Shown one piece after another: positions 14,199 through 29,912 of a stretch of DNA of 64,000 nucleotides (position 1 is its first letter; each line of letters opens with the position of its first letter). A model generated the notes under the pieces. It was not told the origin of the DNA. It was given only the letters and a program-made list of their open reading frames with translations, and ran no database searches. The stretch spans positions 1-64,000 of the forward strand of contig JAHBUW010000002.1 in the NCBI GenBank assembly GCA_019637875.1. The letters run 5' to 3'. The position numbers were made by a program, and so were the translations under genes. This DNA is from Pseudobdellovibrionaceae bacterium. Lineage in GTDB: Bacteria; Bdellovibrionota; Bdellovibrionia; Bdellovibrionales; Bdellovibrionaceae.

Positions 14199-14267
14199 GA
14201 AAATGTCCTTTCGATTTGCAAACGTACCGATTCGGCAATGACTCGAAAGGATTGGCAACAAAAATCA

Positions 14268-14472
14268 GAAGCCTCTGCTGCCCCCTGCGACACCAAAATC
14301 AAGGAGTGAGCGAAAAGAATAGAAGTTTCCCATTTCTGCGAGGCACGGCCCTCCAGGCCTCGCCGCAGATGAATACGCCATCCTGGCGCTGCGGAGGCCT
14401 CCCATAAATGGGAAACTTCTATTCTTTTCGCTCAGCCGAAATCTGGTTTTCGCAGGGGGCAGCAGAAGCTTC
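14268..14472 (-). repeat. Long hairpin element with conserved core, copy 1
   Basis: A nested inverted repeat. Outer arms at 14268-14290 and 14450-14472 pair over 23 nt with one mismatch. An internal loop of 16 and 15 nt follows. Inner arms at 14307-14335 and 14406-14434 pair perfectly over 29 nt. The core (14345-14397) contains CCGCAG...CTGCGG and, inside it, CGCC-ATCCT-GGCG. The core matches the element at 29580-29770 at 45 of 53 positions, while the stems are unrelated. The outer arm overlaps the stop codon of the minus-strand methyltransferase gene, so the element would form the 3' end of that transcript. The strand given follows that gene. Confidence 0.85.
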
Positions 14473-15160
14473 AGAACAGCTTGCGCGAGACGGCCATCCC
14501 GTCGGAGCTCGGGATCATGAAAGTCTCGTAACGAGCGGGCGTCATGACACGCGCAAGGTAGCCACGCATGACCTGCACTTGCTTCGCCGAAAAGCGATCA
14601 TCGCCTTCTTGCTGAGCATCGGGCTGAAAGACCGCGCCGCGCAGAAAGACGTTGTCCGCGACGACGAGCGCGCCGGAACGAAGGTTCTTTTCGGCCCAAT
14701 CCAGATCGTTTTGGTATTCGGCTTTCGCGCCGTCCAGAAAGATTCCGTCGAAAGGACCGAGGGATTCGAGCGTCGCTTTGGCCGCGCGCGAGTCGCCCTC
14801 CACCAAGTGCAGACGCCCGCTGAGCTCCGGGGCGGCGAACAGCTCTTTCAAGAAGCGGCAACGATCGGGCGACTTCTCGATCGTCCACACCTCACTGCCC
14901 TCCGCGAGCGTAGAGAGAAGGCACAGCGCCGAATAGCCGGTCAGCGCACCGACCTCCACCCATTTCGCGGGTTTCAGATGCGCGCCCGTGAGCTTCAATG
15001 CTTGCGCGAACATCGCCATCTCGGCTTCGCCCAGCGACATGAAGCCGACCTCGGTGCGCGCGGCTTCTTCTTTCGCCCGCCGCATGAGGTCCGGAAACCG
15101 CCAGGGCTGAGGGAAATCCTGATGAAACTGCGCGATCAAATCGGAAGTGACACGGTCCAT
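14471..15160 (-). CDS. Class I SAM-dependent O-methyltransferase (CCoAMT-like)
   Basis: 229 residues from the ATG at 15158-15160; the longer open frame upstream is antisense to the neighbouring phosphatase. The catechol/caffeoyl-CoA O-methyltransferase pattern is visible: WVEVGALTGYSALCLLSTL (SAM loop), VWTIEKSPDRC, LVEGDSRAAK, FDGIFLDGAKAEYQNDLDWA (metal-binding acid) and VVADNVFLRGAV. It should methylate a hydroxyl on a small molecule in the cytoplasm; the substrate cannot be told. The start codon is 27 nt from the divergent HAD phosphatase start. The stop codon lies inside the outer arm of the large hairpin element. Confidence 0.92.
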   Translation of the reverse strand: MDRVTSDLIAQFHQDFPQPWRFPDLMRRAKEEAARTEVGFMSLGEAEMAMFAQALKLTGAHLKPAKWVEVGALTGYSALCLLSTLAEGSEVWTIEKSPDRCRFLKELFAAPELSGRLHLVEGDSRAAKATLESLGPFDGIFLDGAKAEYQNDLDWAEKNLRSGALVVADNVFLRGAVFQPDAQQEGDDRFSAKQVQVMRGYLARVMTPARYETFMIPSSDGMAVSRKLF

Positions 15161-15187
15161 GGGCGCACAGTAGCCTCCCTGGCTAGG

Positions 15188-15841
15188 ATGATCAAACACC
15201 TCGTCTTCGATTTGGACGGCACTTTGGCCGACACCCTGCCCGAAATCCATGCGACGGCCGACGCCTTGGCGGTCGCACGGGGCTTTCGCCGTCCGACACT
15301 TGAGGAAACCCGCCACGGCATCGGTTACGGCGGACGGACTCTGCTCTGCAATCTGTTCGGTTTCCAGAAGAACTCGCCCGAGCTCCAAGCCGCCTATGAC
15401 GAGTTCCTCGGTTTTTATGACGAAATCTCTGGGACGACCGCGACACTTTATCCGGGTGTCGATCAATTTTTACGAGAATGGCGCGGCGGTCTTTCCATCA
15501 TCACGAATAAGCCCGGCAAACCCGCCGCGAAAGTCATCCGTTTCACGGGACTCGATGCGCACCCTTGGTCGGTCGTCATCCACGGCGAAAGTTTCCCGAA
15601 GAAAAAACCCGACGCGCTTCCTTTCACCGAGTGCTTTCAGCGCGTCGGCGTGGCGCCCGAAGAGGTCCTCGTCATCGGCGACAGCGATGCTGACGTTTTA
15701 GGAGCCCAGGCCTGTGGCGCGAAGTCCTTGGCCGTCAGCTTCGGGTATATGAACTTGCCCGAGCTCGAGGCCCTGAGACCTGACGGCATCCTCCATCGTT
15801 ACGAGGATCTTCCGGGTGAAATTCGGCGCCTCTCGCGGTAA
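15188..15841 (+). CDS. HAD-superfamily hydrolase, phosphoglycolate phosphatase-like
   Basis: 217 residues from the ATG at 15188. HAD motif I is DLDGTLADT with the nucleophile Asp and acid Asp two residues apart. Motif II is IITNKPG, motif III is the Lys in KKKPDALPF, and motif IV is VIGDSDADVLGAQACG. A helical cap lies between motifs I and II, as in Gph and related phosphatases. It is a soluble cytoplasmic enzyme of normal length, probably removing phosphate from phosphoglycolate or a similar metabolite. It is divergent from the methyltransferase, with only 27 nt for both promoters. Confidence 0.9.
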   Translation: MIKHLVFDLDGTLADTLPEIHATADALAVARGFRRPTLEETRHGIGYGGRTLLCNLFGFQKNSPELQAAYDEFLGFYDEISGTTATLYPGVDQFLREWRGGLSIITNKPGKPAAKVIRFTGLDAHPWSVVIHGESFPKKKPDALPFTECFQRVGVAPEEVLVIGDSDADVLGAQACGAKSLAVSFGYMNLPELEALRPDGILHRYEDLPGEIRRLSR

Positions 15842-24923: not shown

Positions 24924-26270
24924 ATGCGAACGCTCTGTCTTGATATATCCCCGGTCGAACAAGCCTGCGCGGCGGAAGCCTTTTTGGTCCTCTCGCCTCG
25001 TGTTCAGTTTCGTCTTCCTCATTTTATTTTTGTTGATCTTGAGTCAACCGCTGGGCTCCTGGGTGGAGAAGATCGGGCTCTGAACCGCGCGCTGGAAATC
25101 GCCCTTGCTTTGGGAGCGAGGGCCCCGCGAGCGGCGATCGCTGATCACCCCGCCCTCGCGCAAGTGCTCGCGGTGGGTGGACGGGATTCCATTTCCCCTC
25201 CCGGCGAAGACGCCGCAACGCTCAAGCGTCTGCCCCTCCCCGTCTTGACCGAGTACGAAGGCCTGAAACCCTGGCCCCAGCGCCGCCGCATCGAACACAT
25301 CGTCGAGTTCTTCGAGTCCCTGGGACTGCGGCAGATCGACGGGATCTGGGACCTGACTTTATCGTCGTTCCGCGAACGCTGGGGCGAAACCGGCGTCCTC
25401 TTGTGGAAGCGCCTGCACGGACAGGACGGCCAGGTGCTGTCGCCGCTCCTGCCGACGGAAGGTTTTCAAGCCTACGCCTATTTCGACGATTCCGTGGGAC
25501 TGCTGCACTTGCTGCGCACACGCTTAGATGAGCTGCTGAGTTTTCTTTTTCTGCGCCTGGAAGGCCAGGGGCGTTTCGCGCGCCGGCTGGAGCTGATCCT
25601 GCACTGCGAGTATTCGAACGCGCGGCACTCGATCGTTATCGAGCCCGTCTCGCCGAATCGCGATCTGAAACTGTTCCAAGATCTGCTCTTCGCGAAGGTT
25701 GAAGGGGTCGACCTGCTGAACCCCATCCGGGAATGCGAACTTCTGCTCGAGGACGTTCCCGAAAAAGTCGAACAGATGGATTTCTTCGAACCGCGCGACA
25801 CCAGCGAAGACCGCTGGCAAAGACTCATCAGCTTCGCGCAGCAGTCGCAGATCGAAGTCGGTTTTCTGGAGCTCGTCCCGCAGCATTTCCCCGAGAACAG
25901 CTACCACCTGAAGCCCGATTGGCCGCGCGTGCTCGAAGCCCGCGATCACATCGAACGCGACGAAGCCGCGATCCAGGTGAAATCCGTTTACGCCAAGGCG
26001 CTGCTGAATACCCCGCGCCCGACCCTTCTGCTCGATTCGCCGAAAGAACTGACGAAGGGCGAACTGCGCCGCTTTCGTAAGCTGAGCTTTTTCCCGACCG
26101 AACGCCTCGAAGCCTCGTGGTGGTCGCGGCTGCGCGACGCCCTGAAGAGCGAGGGGCAAAAGGCCGCCGATCGCGATTACTATTTCGCGGTCTCCGACGC
26201 GGGCGAGCTCGTGTGGATTTACCAAGATCACCAATCGAAGAGCTACTTCCTGCATGGCTACTTCGACTGA
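24924..26270 (+). CDS. imuB: ImuB-like Y-family polymerase homologue (probably catalytically inactive)
   Basis: 448 residues, shorter than typical ImuB (about 500). The N-terminal part keeps the ImuB landmark FVDLESTAGLLGGEDRAL and the following AAIADHPALAQVLA, but the first part of the palm is abbreviated and the full set of polymerase acidic residues is not seen. Helix-hairpin-helix and little-finger regions follow. Residues 284-288 read QMDFF, a good sliding-clamp-binding motif, inside EKVEQMDFFEP. ImuB in other bacteria bridges ImuA, DnaE2 and the clamp, and this motif fits that role. It overlaps dnaE2 by 17 nt, so the two are translationally linked. Confidence 0.88.
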   Translation: MRTLCLDISPVEQACAAEAFLVLSPRVQFRLPHFIFVDLESTAGLLGGEDRALNRALEIALALGARAPRAAIADHPALAQVLAVGGRDSISPPGEDAATLKRLPLPVLTEYEGLKPWPQRRRIEHIVEFFESLGLRQIDGIWDLTLSSFRERWGETGVLLWKRLHGQDGQVLSPLLPTEGFQAYAYFDDSVGLLHLLRTRLDELLSFLFLRLEGQGRFARRLELILHCEYSNARHSIVIEPVSPNRDLKLFQDLLFAKVEGVDLLNPIRECELLLEDVPEKVEQMDFFEPRDTSEDRWQRLISFAQQSQIEVGFLELVPQHFPENSYHLKPDWPRVLEARDHIERDEAAIQVKSVYAKALLNTPRPTLLLDSPKELTKGELRRFRKLSFFPTERLEASWWSRLRDALKSEGQKAADRDYYFAVSDAGELVWIYQDHQSKSYFLHGYFD

Positions 26271-29200
26271 CGGGGCCGTGGCCCCTTTGAGTCCGACCGC
26301 CTCCGGCGCGATCGCCCACCGTGAAGGAACACTTGCGCCGGTCGCGCGGCCCGTGCGCTTCATCGAGCTCATGGCCCGTTCGAACTTCTCGTTCCTGCAG
26401 GGCGCCTCGCATCCCAATGAAATGGTCGAGCAGGCGATCCGCGAGGATTACGAAGGGATCGCGCTGTGCGACCTGAACGGCCTTTACGGCGTCGTGCGCG
26501 GCCACCATACCGCGTCCGAGCCGTCGCTGTTCGTCGCCTCGGTTTCGCCGAAAGAAAGCTTCCGGTATTTGGTCGCTTCGGAGCTCACGCTCGTGGACGG
26601 CACCTCGATCGCGTTCATGCCGATGACGTTCGAAGGCTACTCGAATCTGTGCCTGCTTTTGACGATCGGCAAACGCAATGTCGCGAAGTACTTCTCCGAA
26701 ATCACCCTCGAGCAGGTCGAAGCCCACGCGGCGGGACTGCTCGCCTTTCCGCTGCCCCCCTTCAACGTCGAACGCTTCGAGCATTTGCGCCGCATCTTCG
26801 GGGATCGTCTTTATTTGCCGGTGTGGCGGGATCTGACCTGGGAGTCGCTCGAGTTCGGCCGGCAGGCGTTCGAGCTCGAGCGCACGCACGAGGCGCAACT
26901 TTTCGTGACCCAACGCCCGTTCATGCATACGCCCGAACGCAAACGCCTTTTCGACGTCCTGACCTGCATCCATCACCACACGACGATCGGAGAGGCCGAG
27001 CAGACGCTCATCCAGAACTCCGAGCGTTATCTGCGCCCCCTCGCCGACCTCGCCGTCCTTTGGCGGGATCGTCCGGACCTGCTCGAAGAAAGCGTCGAGA
27101 TCGCCAAACGCGTCGACTTCAAACTCACGGACATCAAATACCAGTACCCGCACTCGAAAATCCCCGCCGGGATGACCGCGACGACCTATATGCGCCACCT
27201 GGTCGAAGAGGGCGCCCGGCGCCGCTTTCCGAAAGGAGTCACGCCCGAAGTGCGGCATCAGATCGATCACGAACTCGAGATCATTCGCGACCTCGCTTAC
27301 GAGGACTACTTCCTGACCGTGTACGAGATCTGCGAGTTCGCGCGCGAGAAAGGCATTTTATACCAGGGCCGCGGCAGCGCCGCGAACTCGGTCGCCTGCT
27401 TCTGCCTGGGTTTGACCGCCGTGCATCCCGAAAAGGTGGGACTGCTTTTCGAGCGCTTCATCTCGCGCGAGCGCCAGGAGCCCCCCGACATCGACATCGA
27501 CTTCGAGCACGAACGCCGCGAAGAGGTGATCCAGCACATTTACCGCACTTACGGCTCCGAACACGCGGCGATGGTCTGCACCGTCATCCGGTTCAAATCC
27601 CGCCTCGCGATCCGCGAGGTCGCGAAGGTCCTCGGCATTCCGCTCTCCACCGTCAACGCCATGGTGAAGTTCATGGGCCGGGACGGCATGCGCCGCCTGG
27701 TCGCGGACGAAAGCCTCCACGAGAAATTCAAAATCGAGAAATGGCGCTGGCTCGCGATGCTGCAGCTAACCCAAGAGATCAAAGGTTTCCCCCGCCACCT
27801 CGGCATCCACACGGGCGGCTTCTTGATCACGCAAGAGCCGATCACGCGCATCGTGCCCGTCGAGAAAGCGACGATGGACGGTCGTTACGTCATCCAGTGG
27901 AACAAGGACGACATCAACGACATGAAGCTCATGAAAATCGACGTTCTGGGGCTCGGTATGCTCTCGGCGCTGCGCCGTTGTCTGGAGCTTTTGCGGACGC
28001 ACAAAAATTTCCGCGGCGATCTTGCCGAGCTGCCGTCCGAAGATCCCGCGACCTACGACATGATCTGCAAGGCCGACACCGTGGGCGTCTTCCAGATTGA
28101 GTCGCGGGCGCAGATGCAGACGCTCCCACGGCTGCAACCCCGCAATTTCTACGACCTCGTGATCGAGATCGCGCTCGTGCGGCCCGGCCCGCTTCAGGGC
28201 GGCATGGTGCACCCCTACCTGCGGCGCCGCAAAGGCCTCGAAAAACCGACCTACGCCGTGAAAGAGCTCGAACCCGTGCTCCGGCGCACTCTCGGCGTCC
28301 CGATCTTCCAGGAGCAGGTCATGCAGATCGCGGTCGCCGCCGCGGGCTTCACCCCGGGCGAGTCGGACGAACTGCGCCGGATCATGTCGCGGGCCTGGCG
28401 CCAGGAAGGAACGATGGAGGGCGTGCGCGGCCGTCTGTTCCGCGGTATGGCCGAAAAAAACATTCCGCAGTCCATGGCCGAGCAAATCTACCAAACCATC
28501 GAAGGCTTCGCGAACTACGGCTTTCCCGAAAGCCACTCGGCGAGCTTCGCGCTGCTCGCCTACGCGAGCTGCTACATCAAGTGCCACCATCCGGACGTCT
28601 TCACCTGCGCGCTTCTGAACTCGCAGCCGATGGGCTTTTATCCGCCGCGCGTTTTGATCCGCGAAGCGCAAAAAAGCGGCGTGAAGTTCCTGCCCCTCGA
28701 CATCCAAACGTCGGACGTCGAGTACCGACTGCTGTCGCGACCGCGAGAGGCCGAGGGCTACCGCGCGCCCGAACGCCCCCCGCGCCTTGATCACCTCGAC
28801 GACATCCGGGTGGGCTTCATCGGCCTGTCCGCTTTTCCCCGCGAGTGGATGGAAAAGATCGTGAGTGAGCGGCACGCACGCGGACACTACCTGTCGCTCG
28901 AAGATTTCGTGCGCCGGCTGGAAATGCCGCGCCCCCTACTGGCGAAACTCGCGCGGGCGGGCGCCTTCCAATGCTGGGGGCTCGAACCCCGCCGTCTTTT
29001 GTGGCAGATCGAAAGCCTGTCGCTGGATCCGCAGAGTTTTCTGTGGGGCCAGGCGAAGGAAAATCCCGACGACCGCGAAACCGAATTGCCCTTCGAGTCC
29101 AATTGGGACCGCATGGCGCGCGAATACGAAAGCTCGGGCTATTCGCTGGACACGCATCCGCTCGGCATCTTGCGCGCCGGAATCAATGCCCGCAGCGAAC

Positions 29201-29553
29201 AGCTGCGCGCCCGTCGGCTCATCCCGTTTTCGGATTCACGCGACCTCGAGCGTGACCGCAGCGGTTTGAAGGTGCGGGTCGCCGGCATGATCGGCGTGAC
29301 CCAGCGCCCGCCCACCGCGAAGGGGATGTGCTTCATCACGCTCGAAGACGAATTCGGCTTCATGAATATCGTGATCCCGCCCGACGTCTACCAAAGGGAC
29401 CGGCACACGGTCTACTCGAACGGTTTTCTGGAGGTCCAAGGCCGACTCGAAAAAACCGGCGACGGCCTCGTCAACCTGCGCGCCGAGCGGGTGTTCCTGT
29501 TGCGGATCGAGACCACAACCCCCGAGCTCGATCACAGCTCACGACATTGGTAA
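26254..29553 (+). CDS. dnaE2: Error-prone DNA polymerase DnaE2
   Basis: 1099 residues, usual for DnaE2. The order is: a PHP domain (residues about 35-250; FIELMARSNFSFLQGASHP), then a PolC-type catalytic core with PPDIDIDF (D412 and D414) and the third acid D563 in MKIDVLGLGM, then fingers and an HhH region (DDIRVGFIGLSAFP), and an OB-fold near the end (KVRVAGMIGVTQRPPTAKGMCFITLEDEFG). It lacks the C-terminal clamp-binding tail of replicative DnaE1, so it should depend on ImuB for the clamp. It carries out mutagenic translesion synthesis after DNA damage. It is the last gene of the cassette and is followed by a large hairpin element 26 nt after the stop. Confidence 0.96.
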   Translation: MATSTDGAVAPLSPTASGAIAHREGTLAPVARPVRFIELMARSNFSFLQGASHPNEMVEQAIREDYEGIALCDLNGLYGVVRGHHTASEPSLFVASVSPKESFRYLVASELTLVDGTSIAFMPMTFEGYSNLCLLLTIGKRNVAKYFSEITLEQVEAHAAGLLAFPLPPFNVERFEHLRRIFGDRLYLPVWRDLTWESLEFGRQAFELERTHEAQLFVTQRPFMHTPERKRLFDVLTCIHHHTTIGEAEQTLIQNSERYLRPLADLAVLWRDRPDLLEESVEIAKRVDFKLTDIKYQYPHSKIPAGMTATTYMRHLVEEGARRRFPKGVTPEVRHQIDHELEIIRDLAYEDYFLTVYEICEFAREKGILYQGRGSAANSVACFCLGLTAVHPEKVGLLFERFISRERQEPPDIDIDFEHERREEVIQHIYRTYGSEHAAMVCTVIRFKSRLAIREVAKVLGIPLSTVNAMVKFMGRDGMRRLVADESLHEKFKIEKWRWLAMLQLTQEIKGFPRHLGIHTGGFLITQEPITRIVPVEKATMDGRYVIQWNKDDINDMKLMKIDVLGLGMLSALRRCLELLRTHKNFRGDLAELPSEDPATYDMICKADTVGVFQIESRAQMQTLPRLQPRNFYDLVIEIALVRPGPLQGGMVHPYLRRRKGLEKPTYAVKELEPVLRRTLGVPIFQEQVMQIAVAAAGFTPGESDELRRIMSRAWRQEGTMEGVRGRLFRGMAEKNIPQSMAEQIYQTIEGFANYGFPESHSASFALLAYASCYIKCHHPDVFTCALLNSQPMGFYPPRVLIREAQKSGVKFLPLDIQTSDVEYRLLSRPREAEGYRAPERPPRLDHLDDIRVGFIGLSAFPREWMEKIVSERHARGHYLSLEDFVRRLEMPRPLLAKLARAGAFQCWGLEPRRLLWQIESLSLDPQSFLWGQAKENPDDRETELPFESNWDRMAREYESSGYSLDTHPLGILRAGINARSEQLRARRLIPFSDSRDLERDRSGLKVRVAGMIGVTQRPPTAKGMCFITLEDEFGFMNIVIPPDVYQRDRHTVYSNGFLEVQGRLEKTGDGLVNLRAERVFLLRIETTTPELDHSSRHW

Positions 29554-29579
29554 GGCATGGTGGTGAGCATTGAAAAAGT

Positions 29580-29770
29580 CACCCTTTCCGTGTTGCAAAA
29601 ATCTATTTCCGGAGAATGAAGAAGCCCTCTCTTTTCGGTTGGGTGGGACCTCCGCAGCGCCCGGACGGCGTAAGACTCTGCGGTGAGGCCAGGAGGGCCG
29701 TGTCCCAGCCAAGCGAAAAGAGAGGGCTTGTTCATTCACGCCGAGATCGAGTTGCAACACGGAAAGGGTG
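29580..29770 (+). repeat. Long hairpin element with conserved core, copy 2
   Basis: Outer arms 29580-29598 and 29752-29770 pair perfectly over 19 nt. Internal loops of 15 and 14 nt follow. Inner arms 29614-29649 and 29702-29737 pair over 36 nt with three mismatches. The core 29649-29701, read on the minus strand, matches the core at 14345-14397 at 45 of 53 positions. Shared pieces include ACGGCCCTCC, CCGCAG, TACGCC and GGCGCTGCGGAGG. The stems share no sequence with copy 1. It lies 26 nt after dnaE2 and fills more than half of the 359-nt gap to the next gene; in the remaining 140 nt I see nothing definite. Confidence 0.87.
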
Positions 29771-29912
29771 CAGCTCTGAGCTGTCGAACCCACCGACACC
29801 CCTGAAAAGAAATCCCGGCCTCCCCGCCCGGCCCCGCGCCGTTTCGTTCCCGCAGCCGTAAAAGCCGGTCCCGTCCTTGCTTTGTTCCGGCGCAGCTATG
29901 GGGAGTACAACA

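Follow-up and report, generated by a model that had tools for sequence, protein, structure and literature searches.

Results and Discussion

Two Palindromic Units in the Window

The window analyzed comprises 64,000 nt (positions 1 to 64,000 of contig JAHBUW010000002.1 from a Pseudobdellovibrionaceae bacterium) and contains two palindromic units, termed here copy 1 and copy 2. The gene upstream of copy 1 encodes an O-methyltransferase on the minus strand (14471-15466), and that upstream of copy 2 a DnaE-type DNA polymerase III alpha (26254-29553). Both hairpins were located where the initial annotation had placed them, with the nested build described there, and their arms were mapped (Table 1). 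The reported identity of the two cores at 45 of 53 positions was confirmed, and the internal loops show some conservation too. A 35-nt stretch of the core is present twice in the window and in none of 100 shuffles, and folding z-scores of −12.9 and −12.1 were obtained for copies 1 and 2, respectively.

Table 1. Positions of the palindromic units in the window and of the likely partner insertion sequence.
Feature	Position	Strand	Description
Copy 1, whole unit	14265..14475	.	Palindrome made up of outer and inner stems, internal loop and core
Copy 1, outer arm, 5′ side	14265..14299	+	83% paired with 14441-14475
Copy 1, outer arm, 3′ side	14441..14475	+
Copy 1, inner arm, 5′ side	14307..14344	+	95% paired with 14397-14434
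Copy 1, inner arm, 3′ side	14397..14434	+
Copy 1, conserved core	14345..14397	+	53 nt; window minus is the GGA-loop strand, proposed to be selected
Copy 1, hairpin P1	14347..14359	+	GGCC-CTCCA-GGCC; GGA loop on minus strand
Copy 1, stem P2	14363..14394	+	14363-14368/14389-14394; bears hairpin P3 (14376-14388, CGCC-ATCCT-GGCG)
Copy 2, whole unit	29574..29776	.	Eroded ends
Copy 2, outer arm	29580..29598	+	100% paired with 29752-29770; probable terminal inverted repeat remnant of insertion sequence
Copy 2, outer arm, other side	29752..29770	+
Copy 2, inner arm	29614..29649	+	92% paired with 29702-29737
Copy 2, inner arm, other side	29702..29737	+
Copy 2, conserved core	29649..29701	-	GGA-loop strand is window plus
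Copy 2, hairpin P1	29687..29699	-
Copy 2, stem P2	29652..29683	-	29678-29683/29652-29657; bears hairpin P3 (29658-29670)
Likely partner insertion sequence, 966 bp	G000:C8:27957-28922 (L230:1458-2423)		26-bp ends; own 9-bp duplication AATTTCTAA

The stems had been described as unrelated in sequence, which holds for copy 1 compared with copy 2 but not for copy 2 compared with two other copies in the genome, to which it is 83–88% identical over its full length. The identity reaches 88% over 193 bp with the copy at G000:C4:15041-15233 (L028), whose ends are intact and flanked by a 9-bp duplication, whereas those of copy 2 are worn. Copy 1 is more diverged than copy 2, and no intact target-site duplication was found at either. 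Read in the sense of the gene upstream, neither window copy has a T run directly after its outer stem, and the suggestion of a terminator-like structure was abandoned for want of a U run.

Copies in the Genome and Covariation of the Stems

With up to three mismatches allowed the core occurs 10 times in the genome, and whole-element searches raised the total to 14 copies, every one of them within a long, almost perfectly paired hairpin. In the alignment of these copies 91.5% of the cells pair, and changes on both sides were found in 40 of 54 pairs, compared with 22 in shuffles and 14–21 in slid versions, in agreement with the initial proposal of a structured element whose stems are free to vary while the core is kept. 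Departures to wobble pairs are almost absent from the long helix, and the core covaries at a few pairs, as where CCGCAG/CTGCGG is replaced by CCGCCA/TGGCGG. One copy (L027:3050-3107) has an extra stretch of about 14 nt (CTGGCCGCCCGCGA) between the core and the 3′ arm, and its fork is longer.

Distribution in Relatives and Anatomy of the Tip

A near-exact core pattern gave no match in relatives outside this genome, so that a covariance model was needed; it was built on the genome's own hairpin copies and run against the relatives. At the level of the bacterial family 37 of the 66 genomes had matches, and at that of the order 52 of 141, along with a small number elsewhere in the phylum; some of these genomes are drafts. 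The matches are patchy, with up to 32 in one genome and none in the 15 genomes of one genus. The exact core pattern searched in GTDB and viral contigs gave just scattered single matches in unrelated taxa. The initial annotation had proposed such a covariance search, and would have given the element up had neither further copies in the genome or its relatives nor a transcript covering it turned up; copies were found in both, which answers the copy-number half of that condition.

The cores share a common anatomy, in which the long free stem is followed by AC and hairpin P1, then by TC and stem P2, interrupted by either a bulge or an additional hairpin, and last by hairpin P3 and GAGG. Hairpins P1 and P3 have the same loop, N-TC(C/G/A)-N on the strand given in the initial annotation, and the opposite strand therefore reads GGA, CGA or TGA. 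GGA is present in both loops in 71 of 118 copies and in at least one loop in about 110, eight copies having none as called.

At some loci two copies face each other about 170–190 bp apart. In genus g7, orthologous facing pairs with strongly diverged stems lie directly 3′ of rplL, identified by its C-terminal residues, in several species (L099, L114, L117 and L133, at about 2100-2920), and from their presence across species it follows that the element is also inherited vertically. Further facing pairs of similar spacing were observed in other genera (L088, L122, L150 and L157). The fixed orientation relative to the neighboring gene, noted previously for the two window copies, does not extend to the family, in which orientation (as judged by a simple ORF choice) is mixed and opposite-orientation pairs exist.

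The Strand Probably Selected

Across 75 copies, the mismatches in the inner 34 bp, read on the strand of the initial annotation, comprise 79 C·C, C·T or T·C and 42 A·C, with G·G and G·A nearly absent and nine G·T. On the opposite strand the same mismatches are G·G, G·A and G·T, that is, of tolerated kinds. The asymmetry is alike in copies following a gene in one orientation and in the remainder, and 43 further copies, counted without gaps, gave the same direction more weakly because misregistered arms add background. Of 117 copies, 84 fold more stably on the GGA-loop strand under RNA parameters and 98 under DNA parameters; these figures, like the mismatch counts, come from copies that share ancestry and so are not fully independent. 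From the mismatch asymmetry and the folding energies we conclude that selection acts on the GGA-loop strand in folded, single-stranded form, RNA and single-stranded DNA being alike compatible. The strand apparently selected thus seems to be the opposite of that written out at first. Strand asymmetry of stable mismatches provides a simple test for which strand of a hairpin is under selection.

Turnover of the Stems

Comparison of 24 separate copy pairs gave 229 Watson–Crick double changes against 30 single steps via wobble, and in the nine closest pairs (assembly duplicate excluded) the ratio of doubles to wobble singles was about 43 to 11. The double changes often occur in runs or adjacent blocks. 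G-T pairs make up about 2% of the element stems against about 7% of terminator-like hairpins at the same loci, a rough comparison. The published footprint of template switching inside hairpins consists of concerted multi-base changes with few intermediates (PMC8794818). As the changes observed here are of this kind, the stems are read as having been rewritten by DNA copying, and not as shaped by RNA selection alone; part of the double changes could come from strong selection with fast compensation. The element would then be an unusually clear example from nature of concerted change in hairpin arms, and it carries a warning that covariation in long stems may stem from DNA copying and need not, alone, prove RNA function.

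A Palindromic MITE and Its Probable Partner Insertion Sequence

In several copies of this genome the unit measures about 205 bp and ends in GAAACTG...CAGTTTC, the termini at which the homology between copies stops. Perfect 9/9-bp duplications abut these ends exactly in L026 (TATCGAGTA), L028 (TGAAAGGCT) and L029 (AAACTAGAA), and perfect 9-bp duplications accompany slightly worn ends in L031 (TTTTTATTT) and L027 (CTTCATTTC). Duplications were thus found in five of the 14 genome copies; the nine without them include both window copies. A search for the ends returned, besides the copies themselves, a pair 966 bp apart on contig 8, which delimits an insertion sequence (Table 1) whose 26-bp ends are identical to those of L026 at 25 of 26 positions. 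It encodes one protein of 306 aa with an N-terminal CxxC zinc-ribbon-like region. The best family for this protein was the IS1 transposase (NF033558; E 2e-11, 44 bits against a curated cut-off of 100); no Pfam family scored above cut-off, and no match was found on plasmids. A 9-bp duplication is usual for IS1.

Given the 9-bp duplications and the ends common to the insertion sequence, the element in this genome is, to judge from its sequence, a palindromic MITE, most likely moved by the 966-bp insertion sequence with its IS1-like transposase. The early guess of a mobile hairpin element was thus right for this genome. Its corollary, that the arms are copied from flanking sequence, was wrong, because the entire 205-bp unit, arms included, moves between the terminal repeats. 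In other genomes target-site duplications were at chance level, so that the evidence for mobility is confined to this genome. A literature search found no paper on Bdellovibrio MITEs.

Proposed Explanation

The two window features are, in our view, probably old copies of a dispersed palindromic MITE that carries a hairpin module with GGA loops. The outermost stem of the approximately 205-bp MITE would be the terminal inverted repeat of the 966-bp insertion sequence, whose IS1-like transposase presumably mobilises it in trans, with 9-bp target-site duplications as the result. The window copies would descend by such transposition, for which five sister copies display the ends and duplications. 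Within the MITE ends would lie a hairpin module of greater age that occurs in much of the Bdellovibrionota and consists of a long stem and a tip of two small hairpins, their loops GGA (or CGA); the module would be selected as a folded single strand bearing the GGA loops. The pattern of changes suggests that each arm is overwritten by the other through template switching within one molecule during replication, and for this reason the stem sequence would be free while both sides change together. For the tip, the likeliest role is that of a TwoAYGGAY-type twin hairpin that binds a protein when transcribed from flanking genes; this assignment is our preferred guess and is held with low confidence.

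Relation to TwoAYGGAY and Alternative Explanations

TwoAYGGAY (Rfam RF01731) was reported in 2010 by Weinberg et al. as a probable RNA of unknown role, with occurrences in human gut, gamma-Proteobacteria and Clostridiales (PMC2864571), and has been proposed to bind CsrA (PMC4333381). The remark that no named family has the pattern seen here thus needs amending, in that a related named motif exists with a sub-threshold match. No Rfam family matched the window at gathering score; RF01731 had no match to the window copies and none in their genome at E 10. Its two best copies in the Bdellovibrionota scored 32.5 and 37 bits on the predicted strand (gathering score 43), and unrelated generic long-hairpin families give comparable scores. 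Membership of RF01731 is therefore not claimed. A Pseudomonas-type prophage contig carries a true TwoAYGGAY copy (58.9 bits) of the same build, and the feature of two GGA-loop hairpins on a long stem, both on one strand, is present in the element. TwoAYGGAY hairpins were observed in prophage contigs at L206:2832-2951 (over the Rfam threshold), with a C4 antisense RNA nearby, and at L213:1019-1083. An IS3 transposase beside a Pseudomonas phage TwoAYGGAY-like copy was judged coincidental.

The likeness invites another reading, in which the element is primarily a structured, TwoAYGGAY-like RNA within transcripts and its mobility here is incidental; the twin GGA hairpins would bind a CsrA dimer, and so sequester CsrA or put the flanking mRNA under CsrA control. 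We consider this reading rather unlikely, though it explains the frequent GGA in both loops, agrees with the strand of the sub-threshold RF01731 matches and with the published CsrA proposal, and has a CsrA gene available in 65 of 66 family genomes; at both window copies the GGA strand is, moreover, the sense strand of the upstream gene. Across the family, however, copies following a gene mostly have the GGA strand antisense to it (30 against 4 by simple ORF calls), and CsrA does not track the element, being equally present in the element-free genus g3. The ANGGA consensus was found in just 51 of 118 cores, and the eight copies with no GGA loop as called, the scarcity of wobble pairs in the stems relative to the terminator-like hairpins and the lack of any conserved promoter noticed also speak against it. 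An independent small-RNA gene was rejected as a candidate, a conserved promoter-like flank being absent in an 11-copy alignment. No paper dedicated to Bdellovibrio CsrA was found in a literature search.

The perfect stems of 30–40 bp, and the orthologous paired copies just after rplL in genus g7, would suit a long RNA hairpin between genes that is processed by RNase III or stabilises the mRNA, as compared with Correia elements and the E. coli rplL-rpoB site. This is improbable, since it leaves the conserved tip and the strand preference unexplained, and the rarity of wobble pairs and the mixed orientation do not favor it.

Still less commends a REP-like element whose hairpin tip is recognised by RAYT/Y1 (HUH) transposases, which would move it as single-stranded DNA. 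The strand-specific hairpin, the intergenic location, the resemblance of the facing pairs to BIMEs and the commonness of Y1 transposases in the family agree with such an element, but its identity was rejected on co-occurrence: G019 (13 matches) and G020 (three matches) have no Y1 match, whereas the element-free genus g3 has many. In addition, 9-bp duplications and ends of the insertion-sequence type are at odds with RAYT movement. Y1 (RAYT-like) transposases of about 200–250 aa are abundant in the family, with up to 12 per genome, and are unrelated to the element.

Chance palindromes or an assembly artefact, for which the sole support is one locus present on two contigs of another draft genome (L158 and L159), can be dismissed, as 14 copies share the core, well over 100 occur across the phylum in independent assemblies and the covariation far exceeds that of shuffles. 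The L158 and L159 sequences (625 bp, 99.8%) are a single locus in one draft assembly, an assembly duplicate and not a recent insertion.

Significance

The palindromic MITE explanation joins three subjects that are mostly treated separately: a candidate RNA motif whose function is unknown, a palindromic MITE together with the insertion sequence identified as its partner, and concerted arm change. Its extension, that "structured RNAs" of the TwoAYGGAY kind are widely transposon-borne twin hairpins, with a protein-binding tip on a mobile palindrome and a stem rewritten by template switching, is speculative and in our judgment doubtful. If true, mobile elements would seed ready-made post-transcriptional control sites beside genes across the phylum.

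Comparison with Known Systems

With MITEs of IS1-like insertion sequences the element shares terminal inverted repeats common with an autonomous insertion sequence, 9-bp duplications, multiple copies and the lack of coding sequence; it differs in its internal conserved twin-hairpin core, which other genomes have without those ends. Like REP/BIME and Correia elements it is a dispersed intergenic palindrome with paired copies that would give a hairpin RNA if transcribed, but it has no RAYT link, its size, ends and core are different, and its stems are locus-specific. CsrA-binding RNAs of the CsrB/RsmZ type also have paired hairpins with GGA in the loop, whereas the element has two sites per dispersed copy on a long duplex stem, and the full consensus is often absent. 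The likeness to TwoAYGGAY lies in a long, poorly conserved outer stem followed by a pair of hairpins whose loops are of the (A)YGGA(Y) type, and in the purine mismatches of the stem, while the loops of the element are mostly shorter, include CGA and TGA variants and are combined with a shared P2/P3 fork with a bulge.
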